In this document: positions 41,642-48,637 of the stretch, one piece after another
Layout: each line of letters begins with the position of its first letter
How positions within the stretch are numbered: position 1 is the stretch's first letter
Assembly (NCBI RefSeq): GCF_025056915.1
Contig: NZ_JANWVH010000001.1
Coordinates: 62,001-126,000 of the forward strand
DNA length: 64,000 bases
Source: Meiothermus sp.
GTDB lineage: Bacteria; Deinococcota; Deinococci; Deinococcales; Thermaceae
Direction: 5' to 3'
Notes under the pieces: model-generated
Seen by the model: the letters and a program-made list of their open reading frames with translations, nothing else
Database searches by the model: none
Told to the model about the DNA's origin: nothing
Position numbers and translations under genes: made by a program

Positions 41642-44600
41642 ATGAAATTTAGTGAGGCTTATCCTGGTATACCAAATGGACGCGATGCTTGTGGGATTAT
41701 TGCCATCGCCGAAAAAAGCGCACGCCCCAGCCATGCCAACGTGCAGCGTACCATCGAAAGCCTCTATAAGATGGCCCACCGTGCCGGTTTGATTCGGGGG
41801 GAAGGGGATGGCACAGGCATCCAGACCGACCTCCCGCGCGAGCTATGGGCCGGTTACCTCTATGAAGCGGGGCTGGATAGCAACCTGGCCCAGAACCCCC
41901 GCTTTTTTGTGGGACACCTGTTTGTTCCCAAGAGCGAAGCCACGCGGGTGCAAGAGCTTTTCGATTTGTTCCGGGTAGAGGGCTCCAGGCGGGGCATCAA
42001 GCTGTTGCTGGAGCGCAAGGGAGAGACCAACAGCAGCGTGCTGGGGCCGGTGGGCAAGCGCACCGAGCCGCTTTTTTACCAGGTGGCCGGGCTCTCTACC
42101 GATGGCGATGGCCCCTTGTGGGAGCTGGGGCTGCTGCTGGAAGAGCGCTTCCCGGTGCATGTGGTCTCGCTTTCCACGGCCACCGTGGTGTACAAGGTGC
42201 GCGGCTCCGCCGAGATTCTCAAGCGCTACTTCCCGGAGCTCTCGCGGGCGGAGTACAAATCCACCCTCACCCTGGGCCACAACCGCTACTCCACCAACAC
42301 CATGTCCACCTTCGAGGCGGTGCAGCCCTTTGGCCTGCTGGGCCACAACGGCGAGATTAACACCATCGAGCGGCTGCGGCGCGAAGGGCGTTTTTTGAAT
42401 ATCCCTCTCACCGGTGGTTCCGATTCGCAAGACCTCAACCGCATCCTCGAGGGCCTGCTTTACCGCTTTGGCCTCTCCTTGCCGGAGGCCATGGATGTGG
42501 TCTTTCCCCCCATTTTGGGTGAGATTAAGAACTACTCCCCGGCCTTGCAAGACCTGTACATGAGCCTGCGCCAGCGCTTTGGCCCGCTGGCCCAGGGGCC
42601 CGCTGCGCTGGTCACACGCCACCGTGAGGAGGCGGTTTTTGGCACCGATGCCATGGGGCTGCGGCCCTTGTGGTTCGTTGAGACCGAATCGGAGTACGTT
42701 TTCAGCTCGGAGCGGGGGGTTTTTACGGTGGAGGAGTTCGTTTCCGAGCCCCGCCCCTTTGCCCCGGGGGAAAAGATGTACCTGCGCCTGACCTCCGATG
42801 GGGCGCGGCTTTTTCCCTTCGACCGCCACCAGCGTCAGGTGCTGGAGCGCATCCTGACCAAAACCCACAGCCTCGAGGGCTACCGCACCCATCTGGCCGG
42901 GCCGCGCTACGGCTCGGTTCCCCCGCTGGCCGGGGGCAGCGAGGCCCAGGTGGAAGACAAGCCCGCGCCGCCCTCGCTGAACCTCGAGCGGGCCTACGGC
43001 TGGGACCGCTGGGACGCCGGTTACATTGAGGCCCTGGCCGAAAACGGCAACGAGCCCATCGGCTCGCTCGGCTACGACGGCCCCATCGCGGCGCTGAACC
43101 CCGAGAAGCCCAACCTCTCGGAGTTCTTCAAGGAAACGGTGGCGGTAGTGACCAACCCGGCCATTGACCGCGAGCGCGAGATTGAACACTTCTCCACCCG
43201 CAGCATCCTGGGGCGTCGGCCCCTGCCCGACGGACGGGGGGCGGGCCACGTAGAAGAAATGGTCGTACCGGTGCTTCTGGAAGAGACCGCGCCCACCGTT
43301 GGGGCCATTGCACAAGGCCAGGGCACCCTGACCTATGAAGAGGCCCTGCGCCGGTTTGAGCACGTGGTGCTGCCCTTGCAGTTTTCGGTGGAGGAGGGGA
43401 TTGCTGCCGGGCTCAGGCGACTCCAGGAAAGCGCGGTGGAGGCCGTCCAGAGCGGGGCTGAACTCCTGGTGCTTTCCGACCGGGGGGCTTTTGAGGGCGG
43501 GGTCTGGCTGGATGTGTACCTGGCCCTGGCGGCGATTGGCCGTTCGCTCGAGGAGGCCCGCGATGGGGAGGGCATCTCCCTGCGCCGTCGCACCTCAATC
43601 CTGGTGCACTCGGGCGGGGTGCGCAACCTGCACGATGTGGCGGTCTGCCTCGGCCTGGGGGCCGATGCGGTCGCCCCCTGGCTCATGCAACAGAAGGCCC
43701 AGGCCGCCAAGGGTGTGCTGGGTTTGCAAAACCTGCTCGAGGGCCTCAAGAAGGGCCTGGAAAAGGTCATCTCCACCATGGGCATCCACGAGGTGCGCGG
43801 CTACGGGCGCATCTTCAGCGCCATCGGCCTCAAGCCCGATCTGGCCCAGGAGTTCGGCATCCGCAACTTCCTGGGCTCCGATAAGGCCGGCTACGGCCTG
43901 CTGGAGCTCGAGCGCACCCTCTTGGAGCGGCTCAACCTGCTCAATGCCGAAAAGGTTCTGCCGGCCAAGGACTTCCGCTTCAATCCCCGCATCTTCAAGG
44001 CGGCCATGGAGGTTTCCTCGGGCCAGTCGCCCTACGAGCACTTCCAGGAGAAAGTGCGGGGGCTCGAGCAAGAATCGCCGGTTGCAGCCCGACAACTGTT
44101 GGGCATCAAGTCGGTAAACAAGTCCCCGGTCAGCCCGGAGGAAGTGGACCTGAGCGTGGGGGGACACTCCCTGCCTTTTGTGATTACCGCCATGAGCTTT
44201 GGCTCCCAGGGCGAGGCCAGCTTTAGGGCCTATATCGAGGCGGCCAAAAAGCTCAACATGGTCTGCATCAACGGGGAAGGCGGCGAAATCCCCGATATGC
44301 TGGGCAAATACACCCACTGGCGCGGGCAGCAAGTGGCCTCGGGCCGCTTTGGGGCCCATGCCTACATGCTCAACTCGGCGGGCTTTATCGAGATTAAAAT
44401 CGGCCAGGGGGCCAAGCCCGGCGAGGGGGGTCACCTGCCGGGCAAAAAGGTCACGGCCAAGGTGGCCGCAGCCCGCAACGCGGTGCCCGGTGTGGATCTG
44501 ATTTCACCCTCCAACAACCACGACCTCTACTCCATCGAAGACCTGGCCCAATTGATTGAAGAGCTCAAAACCATCAACCCCAAGGCCAAGGTCTCGGTCA

Positions 44601-46138
44601 AGGTGCCGGTCATTCCGGGCATCGGCACCATCGCCGTGGGTATCGCCAAGGCCGGGGCCGACGTGATCGCCCTCTCGGGCTTCGAAGGTGGCACCGGGGC
44701 CGCCCGCTGGCACGCCCTCAAATACGCCGGGCTGCCGGTGGAAATCGGGGTACGCCGCGCACATCGGGCGTTGGTGCGGGCGGGGCTGCGCGACAAGGTC
44801 GAACTCTGGGCCGACGGCGGTCTCAAAACCGCCTACGACACCTTGCGGATGGTGCTTTTGGGGGCCGACCGGGTAGGTATGGCCACCATGGCCATGGTGG
44901 CGATTGGCTGCACCATCTGCCGCCAGTGCCAGATGGACACCTGCCATGTGGGCATCGCCACCCAGATTGAAACCGTGGAGCAGGCCCAGGCCCATGGTCT
45001 GAAGCGGTTTGTGCCCCAGGAGCAAGACCGGGCCGTTGAGCAGCTGGTTCATTTCTTCGGCGCTAAGGGCGACGAACTGCGGCGCATGGTCGCAGCCCTC
45101 GGCGCAGCAAGCCTGCGGGAACTGGTGGGCCGCAGCGACCTGTTGACGCAGGAAAGCCACCACGAGGAACTCGACCTTAGCTACTTCTTCGAGCCGGTGA
45201 CGGCCCCTGAGTGGCTGGGTGAGCGCTCGGCCCACGTGCTGCGCAAGCCCCTGAACCAGCTGACCCGCTCGATTACCGAGGTGGTCACCGGCGCTTACGC
45301 CGAGGGCGGTCGGGCGCTTCTGTTCCAGGAAGGGCCGGTCGGCTCAACCGACCGCGCCCTGGGCACCCACCTGGCCGGCGAGATTGCCCGGCGTCGCCTG
45401 TATGGCAAGGGCTGGGATGCCAAAGTGGAGCTTCGCTTCGATGCAGGGAGCGTGGCAGGCAACGGCATTGCGGCCTTCAACGTAGAGGGGCTGGACATTG
45501 TGGTTGAAGGGGGCGCTCAGGACGGCATTGCCAAGAATGCCTACGGGGGCAAGGTGGCCATCCTCAAGGGCCGTAACCCCTTTGGCCAGTACGTGGACGG
45601 CTCGGTAGGGAAGTCTTTCGCCTATGGCGCCATCGGCGGCTTGCTGATTGTGGAAGGGCAGGCCGACAGCCGTTTCTGCATCCGCCTTTCGGGGGCCGAT
45701 GTGGTGCTGGCCGGCGAGCCAGACCGGCCCGTGCAGGACGAACTCGGCAACATTGCGGCCCGCGCTCAAGCCAAGGGTTTTGCCTTCGAATACATGACCC
45801 GCGGACGGGCAGTGGTGCTCGGCGACCCGGGCCCGTGGATCTGCTCCGGGATGACCGGGGGGCGGGTTTACCTGCGCTTCTGGCCGGAAATGGGCCTCAA
45901 CGAGGAAGCCATGCACCGGCGGCTGGCTAAAGGGGCCAAGGTCACCATCCAGAAACTAGACGAGCGCGGGATTGCCGACGTGCGCGAACTGATGAGCGCC
46001 TATCTCGACGCTTTGCGCGACGCCGAGCGCGAAGACAAGGCCGAGCGTTTGATGAAGCTGCTGGCCGACCCTGCGACCCATTTCCGCATGGTGTTGCCCA
46101 CCAACCAGCAAGTGGTGCAGGAGGTCAGCACCGAGTAG
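41642..46138 (+). CDS. gltB: Glutamate synthase large subunit
   Basis: Makes glutamate from glutamine and 2-oxoglutarate, the central ammonia-assimilation step. The 1498-residue protein has a 16-residue propeptide, then Cys17 (ACGIIAIAEK) as the class II amidotransferase nucleophile; an FMN-binding synthase barrel in the middle (KVSVKVPVIPGIGTIAVGIAKAGADVI); the 3Fe-4S motif CTICRQCQMDTC near 1090-1101; and the C-terminal beta-helix (GxxxGNGIAAFNVEGLDIVVEGG). An NADPH-type GltD small subunit is not adjacent, so it may be elsewhere, or ferredoxin may be the donor. GGAGGT precedes the ATG. Its promoter faces away from spoVS. Confidence 0.97.
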   Translation: MKFSEAYPGIPNGRDACGIIAIAEKSARPSHANVQRTIESLYKMAHRAGLIRGEGDGTGIQTDLPRELWAGYLYEAGLDSNLAQNPRFFVGHLFVPKSEATRVQELFDLFRVEGSRRGIKLLLERKGETNSSVLGPVGKRTEPLFYQVAGLSTDGDGPLWELGLLLEERFPVHVVSLSTATVVYKVRGSAEILKRYFPELSRAEYKSTLTLGHNRYSTNTMSTFEAVQPFGLLGHNGEINTIERLRREGRFLNIPLTGGSDSQDLNRILEGLLYRFGLSLPEAMDVVFPPILGEIKNYSPALQDLYMSLRQRFGPLAQGPAALVTRHREEAVFGTDAMGLRPLWFVETESEYVFSSERGVFTVEEFVSEPRPFAPGEKMYLRLTSDGARLFPFDRHQRQVLERILTKTHSLEGYRTHLAGPRYGSVPPLAGGSEAQVEDKPAPPSLNLERAYGWDRWDAGYIEALAENGNEPIGSLGYDGPIAALNPEKPNLSEFFKETVAVVTNPAIDREREIEHFSTRSILGRRPLPDGRGAGHVEEMVVPVLLEETAPTVGAIAQGQGTLTYEEALRRFEHVVLPLQFSVEEGIAAGLRRLQESAVEAVQSGAELLVLSDRGAFEGGVWLDVYLALAAIGRSLEEARDGEGISLRRRTSILVHSGGVRNLHDVAVCLGLGADAVAPWLMQQKAQAAKGVLGLQNLLEGLKKGLEKVISTMGIHEVRGYGRIFSAIGLKPDLAQEFGIRNFLGSDKAGYGLLELERTLLERLNLLNAEKVLPAKDFRFNPRIFKAAMEVSSGQSPYEHFQEKVRGLEQESPVAARQLLGIKSVNKSPVSPEEVDLSVGGHSLPFVITAMSFGSQGEASFRAYIEAAKKLNMVCINGEGGEIPDMLGKYTHWRGQQVASGRFGAHAYMLNSAGFIEIKIGQGAKPGEGGHLPGKKVTAKVAAARNAVPGVDLISPSNNHDLYSIEDLAQLIEELKTINPKAKVSVKVPVIPGIGTIAVGIAKAGADVIALSGFEGGTGAARWHALKYAGLPVEIGVRRAHRALVRAGLRDKVELWADGGLKTAYDTLRMVLLGADRVGMATMAMVAIGCTICRQCQMDTCHVGIATQIETVEQAQAHGLKRFVPQEQDRAVEQLVHFFGAKGDELRRMVAALGAASLRELVGRSDLLTQESHHEELDLSYFFEPVTAPEWLGERSAHVLRKPLNQLTRSITEVVTGAYAEGGRALLFQEGPVGSTDRALGTHLAGEIARRRLYGKGWDAKVELRFDAGSVAGNGIAAFNVEGLDIVVEGGAQDGIAKNAYGGKVAILKGRNPFGQYVDGSVGKSFAYGAIGGLLIVEGQADSRFCIRLSGADVVLAGEPDRPVQDELGNIAARAQAKGFAFEYMTRGRAVVLGDPGPWICSGMTGGRVYLRFWPEMGLNEEAMHRRLAKGAKVTIQKLDERGIADVRELMSAYLDALRDAEREDKAERLMKLLADPATHFRMVLPTNQQVVQEVSTE

Positions 46139-46425: not shown

Positions 46426-46571
46426 GTCATTGGCATTCAAAGTGTTCAAGCAAGGTTGGTATGACCTGGTGCAACCGAAACCAAGCTGACTTGTTGGAGT
46501 GTGTCCAAAAACGCATTCTGTATTGGGATTCAATCTTTGTTCGGTAGCTTTCCGACGATTTTATGTCAAGG

Positions 46572-46585
46572 TACAATTGTCCCAA
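46572..46585 (+). promoter_or_regulatory. -10 box of protoglobin gene 1 (leaderless)
   Basis: TACAAT followed by eight bases and the ATG; TTTCCG 17 bases upstream is a weak -35. Confidence 0.5.
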
Positions 46586-47143
46586 ATGGAAGCCGGGGCT
46601 CTACTGACCAAGCTGATGGAGCGTACCGGACTGCAAGAGCGGCATATCCAGATGCTTCGGAGGCTGGAGCCCCTCATGGCCCCAATGGCTACAGAAATTG
46701 CCCTGGCCTTCTACGATTACCTGGGCCGGGATGACGAGATGCGGGCCATCCTCTGGGACTCTCCTGGCAGGGTCGAGCGGCTCTATCAAAGCTTTGCCGA
46801 CTGGTACCGGGGGCTTTTTTGTGGTTTATACGACGACGAGTATGCCGAGAAGCGGGCTCGCATTGGCCTGGTGCACGCCGCCATCGGGGTCAAGCCCAGT
46901 TTCATCGTGCCCGCATTTGGCATCGTGCAGGAGTTATCCCTCGAGCACCTGCGCAACACCCTGCGTTCCCCCGAAATCTTCAGTGCGGTGGAAGCCTTCG
47001 AGAAGATCATGGCCATCGAGGCGGCCATAATGCAGGATAGCTATATGCAGGCCATGGAGTACGGGTATCGCCTGGGGGTGGCTGCCGACCAGGAGAAAGC
47101 CCTGGTGGCGGGGGCCAGGGCTATGCTGGGAAAAGCCAACTGA
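46586..47143 (+). CDS. Protoglobin / single-domain globin sensor protein 1
   Basis: A 185-residue haem-binding globin of the protoglobin/globin-coupled-sensor type. The proximal His is His97 in RIGLVHAAIGVKPSFIVPA; the preceding pattern YQSFADWYRGLFCGLYDDEYAEKRARIG is the family hallmark. No kinase, cyclase or chemotaxis output domain follows, so it may carry or sense O2, CO or NO by itself. More than half of its residues match the next gene (REVALAFYDYLGRD-type segment, QELxLEHLRN, AFEKIMAIE), so the pair is a tandem duplication. The ORF-track start (46499) is rejected because a -10 box lies between. Confidence 0.87.
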   Translation: MEAGALLTKLMERTGLQERHIQMLRRLEPLMAPMATEIALAFYDYLGRDDEMRAILWDSPGRVERLYQSFADWYRGLFCGLYDDEYAEKRARIGLVHAAIGVKPSFIVPAFGIVQELSLEHLRNTLRSPEIFSAVEAFEKIMAIEAAIMQDSYMQAMEYGYRLGVAADQEKALVAGARAMLGKAN

Positions 47144-47239
47144 ACGGGTGGGTCAGGGATTCAGGGTCGCGGGCAAGATAAGCCATGCAGTGGCTTTCTA
47201 CAACGGGCCATCGGCTATGAGACACTGGTATCCCTGAAG

Positions 47240-47252
47240 TACAATCCCTGGG
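47240..47252 (+). promoter_or_regulatory. -10 box of protoglobin gene 2 (leaderless)
   Basis: TACAAT followed by CCCTGGG and ATG 47253; the same arrangement as the first protoglobin gene. Confidence 0.55.
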
Positions 47253-47804
47253 ATGAAGGCTGAAGAGCTGCTGCAAACCCTGGTGCGTCGCACGGGGTTG
47301 ACGTCGCAGCACATCCACACCCTGAAAAGCCTCGAGCCTATTGCCGGCCCCCTGGCCCCCGAGGTAGCCCTGGCCTTTTACGATTACCTGGGCCGCGACC
47401 CCGAGATGCACGAGATACTGTGGAGCGTGCCGGGTCGGGTCGAGCGGCTGTATCGTTCCTTTGCGGTCTGGTATCGGGAGCTTTTTTCCGGTCTGTACGA
47501 TGAGGCCTATGCCCGACGCCGAATTCAGATTGGGCTGGTGCATGCGCGGGTTGGTGTTCGACCTGGACACTTCATTCCAGCGGTGGGCATCGTGCAGGAG
47601 CTGACCCTCGAGCACCTTCGCAACGCGCTGCGCGGCGCGGATATTCTGGCGGCCATTACAGCCTTTGAAAAAATCATGGCCATCGAGATTGCCCTCATGC
47701 AAGAGAGCTATTTCAGTGCGCTGTGGGAAGGGCTCAAGCTGACCGAAAACGAGCAGCTAGCCCTGATGGAAGGGGCGCGGGTGCTGCTGGAGAAAGCCCG
47801 TTGA
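47253..47804 (+). CDS. Protoglobin / single-domain globin sensor protein 2
   Basis: A 183-residue paralogue of the gene upstream, colinear over its full length. His97 in IGLVHARVGVRPGHFIPA is the expected proximal haem ligand, and the distal-side block LYRSFAVWYRELFSGLYDEAYARRR is preserved. The main differences are in the E/F region and the C-terminal helix, which suggests different ligand affinities rather than loss of function. It has its own -10 box, so the two genes can be controlled separately. No output domain is present. Confidence 0.87.
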   Translation: MKAEELLQTLVRRTGLTSQHIHTLKSLEPIAGPLAPEVALAFYDYLGRDPEMHEILWSVPGRVERLYRSFAVWYRELFSGLYDEAYARRRIQIGLVHARVGVRPGHFIPAVGIVQELTLEHLRNALRGADILAAITAFEKIMAIEIALMQESYFSALWEGLKLTENEQLALMEGARVLLEKAR

Positions 47805-47857: not shown

Positions 47858-48637
47858 GTGATTCAGGCCGTTTTGTTCGACCTCGACGAGACCCTCATCC
47901 TCGATCATCCCGTCTCCTTGCACGCCCTGCAAAGCTGCGCCTTTTATGCGGCCTCCTGGTACAGCCTGGATATTTCACGCCTGATTCAGAGGGCCGAGGC
48001 CACGGCGGTGCGCCTGTGGAAGTCGTCTCCGGTTTACGACTACACCCAGCGCATCGGCCACAGCGCAGGGGAGGGGCTCTGGGCTCGCTACGAGGTACAG
48101 ACCCATCCTGCGCTGAAAACCCTGCACGACTGGGCCCCGGACTTTCGCATAGCGGTCTGGCGCGAGTCTTTGGAAGAACAGGGAATCCACGACGATGCGC
48201 TATGCGAAGCGCTGGCCCACCGCTATCTGGGCGAGCGGCGGTTGTACCCGCGCTATCCCGAGATTGATTCCCTCCTCAAGGCGCTCTCGAGGTACAAACT
48301 CGGCATTGTGACCAATGGCGTGCCCGACTTGCAGCGGGAGAAGCTCGAGGGCTTTGGCCTGCAAGATCGCTTTCAAGCCATCGTGGTCTCGGGCGAACTC
48401 GACATCGGCAAACCCCAGCGCGGCATCTTCGAGCACATCTGCAAGGAACTCGATGTGGAGCCTTCGGATTGTGTAATGGTGGGCGACAACCCCGAGCGGG
48501 ATGTGGCCGGGGCGGCGGGCGTGGGGATGAAATCGGTCTGGGTCGAGCGCGGCTTCAAGCCCAAAGACCCCCGCTACAAAGCCGACCTCGAGGTCGCCAA
48601 CCTGCTGGAGATGCTGCCCTGGCTGGCGACGTTGTGA
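47858..48637 (+). CDS. HAD-superfamily hydrolase
   Basis: A 259-residue phosphatase of the haloacid-dehalogenase superfamily, subfamily IA (YjjG/YfnB-like). Motif I FDLDETL carries both Asp (8 and 10), motif II is the Thr of IVTNGVPDLQREKLE, motif III Lys is in DIGKPQRGIFEHICKEL, and motif IV is MVGDNPERDVAGAAGVGMKSVWV. Substrate unknown; nucleotide or small phosphate esters are likely. The start is a GTG six bases after TAAGAT, probably leaderless. Its stop overlaps the following frameshifted gene by GTGA. Confidence 0.92.
   Translation: MIQAVLFDLDETLILDHPVSLHALQSCAFYAASWYSLDISRLIQRAEATAVRLWKSSPVYDYTQRIGHSAGEGLWARYEVQTHPALKTLHDWAPDFRIAVWRESLEEQGIHDDALCEALAHRYLGERRLYPRYPEIDSLLKALSRYKLGIVTNGVPDLQREKLEGFGLQDRFQAIVVSGELDIGKPQRGIFEHICKELDVEPSDCVMVGDNPERDVAGAAGVGMKSVWVERGFKPKDPRYKADLEVANLLEMLPWLATL

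Follow-up and report, generated by a model that had tools for sequence, protein, structure and literature searches.

Two colinear genes encoding small globins, here named pgbA (46,586 to 47,143, 185 aa) and pgbB (47,253 to 47,804, 183 aa), lie side by side on the forward strand of the window, i.e., the whole stretch of 64,000 nucleotides of DNA analysed here from a thermophilic Meiothermus, and are separated by a spacer of 109 nt. Both proteins matched the Pfam family Protoglobin (PF11563) above its cut-off of 25 bits (PgbA, 88.9 bits, E-value 4.7e-25; PgbB, 95.8 bits, E-value 3.5e-27), and in the same search no second domain exceeded its cut-off and no output domain was found. They are the only two PF11563 matches in the whole genome and, as paralogues, share 59% identity over 185 columns. 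Tyr43 and His97, present in both and invariant in an alignment of 31 relatives, align with Tyr70 and His123 of HemAT, which we take to be the B10 position and the proximal histidine (F8), respectively; PgbA in addition carries Cys79, and PgbB Arg99. An earlier note, made from the sequence by eye, had proposed two colinear protoglobin-type globins, each with His97 and no output domain and more than half identical to each other, and this description was borne out. The upstream neighbour is gltB (41,642 to 46,138, forward strand; Pfam Glu_synthase, Glu_syn_central, GATase_2 and GXGXG), encoding the large subunit of glutamate synthase; since its product scores 683 bits against the corresponding NCBIfam model, below the equivalog cut-off of 1047, it is a divergent form. 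Downstream, a HAD-superfamily hydrolase (47,858 to 48,637, forward strand; Pfam E-value 3.8e-26) has its own TAAGAT 6 nt before a GTG start.

AlphaFold2 models, built from alignments of the collected globin loci, were all-helical and confident for both PgbA (pLDDT 93.7, pTM 0.89) and PgbB (pLDDT 95.6, pTM 0.90), with the same predicted helices, the first starting at residue 3 and the last a short terminal helix (approximately residues 167 to 184) with nothing beyond it. The best Foldseek matches of the PgbA model were globins throughout, so that the globin fold, the check that the earlier note had called for, was recovered. The top match was Tlr1989 of Thermosynechococcus elongatus (PDB 8h17; TMt 0.91, rmsd 1.5, 35% identity in the structural alignment), which also led the profile search (2.4e-41), followed by the globin domains of the globin-coupled sensors (GCS) HemAT-Bs (1or4), GsGCS (2w31) and AfGcHK (5ohe), with TMt values of 0.80 to 0.91 and the proximal histidine and B10 tyrosine aligned with those of PgbA and PgbB. 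Unlike these sensors, which carry a methyl-accepting, kinase or cyclase output domain, PgbA and PgbB end in the short final helix. The archaeal protoglobins (MaPgb, 3zh0/3zjn; ApPgb, 7ute) have the globin fold in common with PgbA, but match it weakly (TMt approximately 0.6 to 0.68); the first Methanosarcina acetivorans protoglobin appeared at Foldseek rank 17 (TMt 0.68), and the profile search at E<=0.001 returned 8h17 and the GCS domains and no archaeal protoglobin. The archaeal type also has a long N-terminal extension, which PgbA and PgbB lack, given that their first predicted helix already begins at residue 3. An assignment as protoglobins in the strict sense of MaPgb was thus rejected, and the term fits only in the wide Pfam sense, MaPgb being, as we understand it, a member of the same broad family (PF11563). 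PgbA and PgbB are single-domain sensor-type globins, i.e., a GCS-like globin domain without an output domain, and are predicted to bind haem as well as O2, NO or CO. As proteins, they add members to an already known kind of globin; a literature search on Tlr1989 and on Meiothermus single-domain globins returned nothing.

The earlier note had also held protoglobins to be mainly archaeal, with few bacterial cases. This view is outdated, as 48 of 61 related genomes matched PF11563 above the cut-off, and a 2006 survey already lists Pgbs of Thermus thermophilus, Thermosynechococcus and Rubrobacter (PMC1457004). For the comparisons below, the genomes were grouped into Meiothermus (18 genomes) and Thermus-like (17 genomes). 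The tandem pair is found on a single contig in nine Meiothermus genomes, including the present one; in one further genome (G003) A and B are split between the ends of two contigs, and in another (G010, L047:7213-7884) the A copy, situated close to a contig end, is missing its first ~29 codons and looks interrupted. The slot is conserved, with gltB directly upstream of the globin gene(s) in most Thermaceae loci examined and the HAD hydrolase usually the next gene on the 3' side in Meiothermus. In a maximum-likelihood tree the A copies form one clade (support 100/99) and the B copies another (98/91), and the single-copy globins fall outside or as sister to B. A single duplication of an old Thermaceae globin gene behind gltB has occurred within Meiothermus, each copy having one origin, and copies were likely lost in some species. 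Purifying selection acts on both PgbA and PgbB (dN/dS of 0.03 to 0.14 against G000). A chimeric origin of one single globin (G013), with an A-like promoter and a body of the single-copy type, was considered and dropped, its support being modest. A distant second PF11563 type also occurs in Thermaceae (L055, L061 and L068), away from gltB and with 24 to 29% identity to PgbA.

The hexamer TACAAT, presumed to be the -10 box, stands 8 nt before the ATG of pgbA (46,572 to 46,577, forward strand), where it would give a leaderless or near-leaderless start, and 7 nt before that of pgbB (47,240 to 47,245, forward strand), distances that agree with those read by eye. Although this fits the separate leaderless-type promoters proposed in the earlier note, such a start is by itself ordinary for this genome, because a TANNNT motif 5 to 9 nt before a possible start was found for 14 of the 47 ORFs of the window versus 1.4% of start-like codons, the former being an upper figure since several candidate starts were allowed per ORF. 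What sets pgbA apart emerged from the comparison of upstream regions: its TACAAT is embedded in a near-palindromic candidate operator, GGTACAATTGTCCC (46,570 to 46,583, forward strand), which overlaps the -10 box and ends 2 nt before the ATG. The consensus is GGKACA-WW-TGTMCC (the centre may also be written NN). GGTACAATTGTCCC is exact in eight of nine intact Meiothermus pgbA promoters, and GGTACATTTGTCCC, which abuts the GTG start directly, is present in all six Thermus-like globin promoters tabulated. Altogether, 28 promoters of pgbA or single-copy globins were tabulated, 14 of them with an exact palindrome and 8 more with one mismatch. Two genomes (G018 and G022) are without the TACAAT and still have the core GGACA-GA-TGTCC, and the operator is degraded in three others, with 4 mismatches in each of G001 and G014 and 8 in G043, a more distant genome. 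In contrast, all 11 pgbB promoters have 5 to 8 mismatches to the palindrome (7 in the present genome), and most of them retain TANAAT. The pgbA operator is thus conserved from Meiothermus to Thermus-like genomes and lost at pgbB. Since A keeps the palindrome and B does not, the pair, judged from its upstream sequences, differs most clearly in regulation.

A screen for the same palindrome elsewhere gave only two exact sites in the whole genome, at pgbA and at a gene for an HpaR-type MarR regulator, and none for the reversed pattern used as control. Across the 17 Thermus-like genomes, 42 exact sites were found versus none for the control. When one mismatch was allowed, the 18 Meiothermus genomes yielded 134 sites versus 45 for the control, so that about one third of these sites would be expected from the control. 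The genes that follow were named by Pfam and NCBIfam. The exact Thermus-like sites precede the globin gene, a QrcA/ACIII-like multihaem cytochrome gene, heme A synthase (ctaA) and subunit II of a ba3-type oxidase (cbaB), and the Meiothermus targets include heme A synthase (observed in nine genomes), NDH-2, COX2, SCO1, DUF420, a c-type cytochrome and the QrcA-like cytochrome. An NDH-2-like gene of a genome outside Thermaceae (G039) carries the palindrome too. There are also non-respiratory targets, namely PPDK, HpaR and a DUF454-like gene. The palindromes before ctaA, cbaB and the QrcA-like cytochrome gene lie outside the apparent -10 box, here assigned by eye, and contain no TACAAT. At the cytochrome gene palindrome and box are 13 nt apart in 11 of the 12 loci (by pattern), and the distance is approximately 22 to 25 nt at ctaA (15 loci) and 23 nt at cbaB (3 loci), so the cytochrome spacing differs from the others by about one helical turn; the intervening sequence varies and the spacing is nearly constant per target. 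A literature search for the letters of the palindrome returned unrelated matches and no report in a respiratory or globin context. The palindrome would mark a respiratory regulon that is apparently undescribed, and the novelty lies in the wiring, pgbA having, and pgbB having lost, an element common to genes of the aerobic respiratory chain.

The earlier note had based a division of labour between the two globins on different haem-pocket surroundings, and we consider a split in ligand affinity or chemistry between A and B rather unlikely, though more probable than the other alternatives. Twelve positions are strictly fixed but different between the A and B copies, including A99R, K103R and F106H (A to B), which follow the proximal histidine, and Cys79 is confined to the A copies. 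Yet all of the fixed differences lie outside the core pocket positions, and every core residue compared (F42, Y43 at B10, L66, S69, F70, W73 and H97) is identical in both, as are the predicted helices. The claim of different pocket surroundings is therefore weak, and the division of labour is better supported at the promoter, with the palindrome before A and not before B. Both kinds of split are compatible and could hold together.

The conserved neighbourhood suggests another role, in which the globin is tied functionally to gltB (GOGAT), for instance as a shield of this Fe-S flavoenzyme against O2 or NO or as a gas sensor in ammonium assimilation, with the respiratory palindrome being secondary. 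The adjacency of gltB and globin extends from Meiothermus to the Thermus-like genomes, and in three genomes (G006, G011 and G014) no more than ~20 to 25 nt separate the end of gltB from the globin start. However, the globin is served by a conserved promoter of its own, the other conserved targets of the palindrome are genes of oxidases and of the respiratory chain and not of nitrogen metabolism, and a single weak site lies near an ammonium-transporter-like gene, in G000 only (L132), so that we regard the nitrogen role as unlikely. That the pair is an ordinary duplication of sensor-type globins and the palindrome a conserved strong promoter core (-10 box and discriminator) that other genes happen to share appears more improbable still: the site does overlap the -10 box and end 0 to 2 nt before the start codon, in a genome in which leaderless-type promoters are common, but the sites of ctaA, cbaB and the QrcA-like cytochrome stand away from the -10 box at near-constant spacing, the Thermus-like genomes gave 42 exact sites against none for the control, and the right arm TGTCCC, which a -10 box does not need, persists in most globin promoters but not at pgbB, where the -10 box stays.

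Several families were considered as the regulator. CopY/BlaI (PF03965), examined for the ACANNTGT core, is absent from G000 and from 48 of the 61 genomes. HpaR (TIGR02337, MarR family), with an exact site at its own gene, is restricted to 16 of the 18 Meiothermus genomes, with none in the Thermus-like group. A GAF-BTAD protein similar to Thermus DnrS, with a one-mismatch site in some genomes, is patchy and absent from G000. All three were rejected as regulators for the whole family. In Meiothermus, the exact palindrome at the HpaR gene (L127:4050; also L089, L091 and L097) is preceded by a conserved, AT-rich sequence, TAATATATTAAGTAAAAC, within which a second palindrome lies, and in some genomes of the genus the one-mismatch site of the GAF-BTAD gene immediately precedes the start of that gene (L208:600 and L203:2030). 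The Rrf2 family is present in 41 of 41 genomes, and the 30 Rrf2 loci checked had no palindrome at up to one mismatch. The operator of NsrR(Th) in Thermus, CTTGACCNNGGTCATGG, controls nitrite and NO reductases (PMC5748679); like the element at pgbA, it is a palindrome with a 2-bp centre at respiratory genes of the same bacterial family, but its half-site is TGACC versus GGGACA in the pgbA-type palindrome. A second protoglobin type, with stronger Pfam matches, was observed in a denitrification-like cluster (L069:2416-10998 in G031; G026:C6:54452-58710), together with a DnrS-like GAF-BTAD gene, a CRP-family gene, a 4Fe-4S protein, cytochrome P460 and a cytochrome d1 gene.

We consider it probable that the locus holds duplicated haem-binding globins of the sensor family, of which PgbA stands under an operator of respiratory genes and PgbB has been released from that control. 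PgbA would have retained the ancestral promoter, with its -10 box within the palindromic operator GGKACA-WW-TGTMCC, which Thermaceae would also use to control genes that encode or assemble the aerobic respiratory chain (ctaA, cbaB, the QrcA/ACIII-type cytochrome, ndh-2, SCO1 and DUF420). A putative dimeric regulator may bind the palindrome, and since the site at pgbA overlies the -10 box, it would there keep RNA polymerase out. The sites of ctaA, cbaB and the cytochrome gene precede the apparent -10 box and are placed where an activator could act, so that pgbA may be regulated in the opposite direction. The simplest reading would be one dimeric regulator that both activates oxidase-type promoters and shuts off pgbA; alternatively, it may act as a repressor at all palindrome sites. 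PgbB has kept the presumed -10 box and lost the operator, and would so be free of that control. PgbA may buffer or scavenge O2 or NO for the terminal oxidases while the respiratory chain is being retuned, and PgbB may supply a basal, differently controlled level of globin. A bolder version, which we put forward as speculative and consider unlikely, is a Thermaceae regulon defined by the palindrome. In it, a putative factor would switch on oxidase and ACIII-type genes and hold down a cytosolic globin, and the Meiothermus duplicates would have divided this control, in that PgbA retained the switch and PgbB was released from it; PgbA may itself signal the O2 or NO state back to the regulator.

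Because the switch sequence of pgbA also precedes genes of oxygen respiration, a role of the first globin in respiration is suggested. The element common to pgbA, heme A synthase, the ba3 oxidase, NDH-2 and the oxidase-assembly genes provides a concrete and testable link to aerobic respiration, which bears on the physiological role of stand-alone sensor-family globins. The A/B pair represents a natural experiment, with the same fold and the element either present or absent. In addition, the element points to a putative regulator of respiration common to Thermus and Meiothermus, two genera whose oxidases serve as models in structural work.
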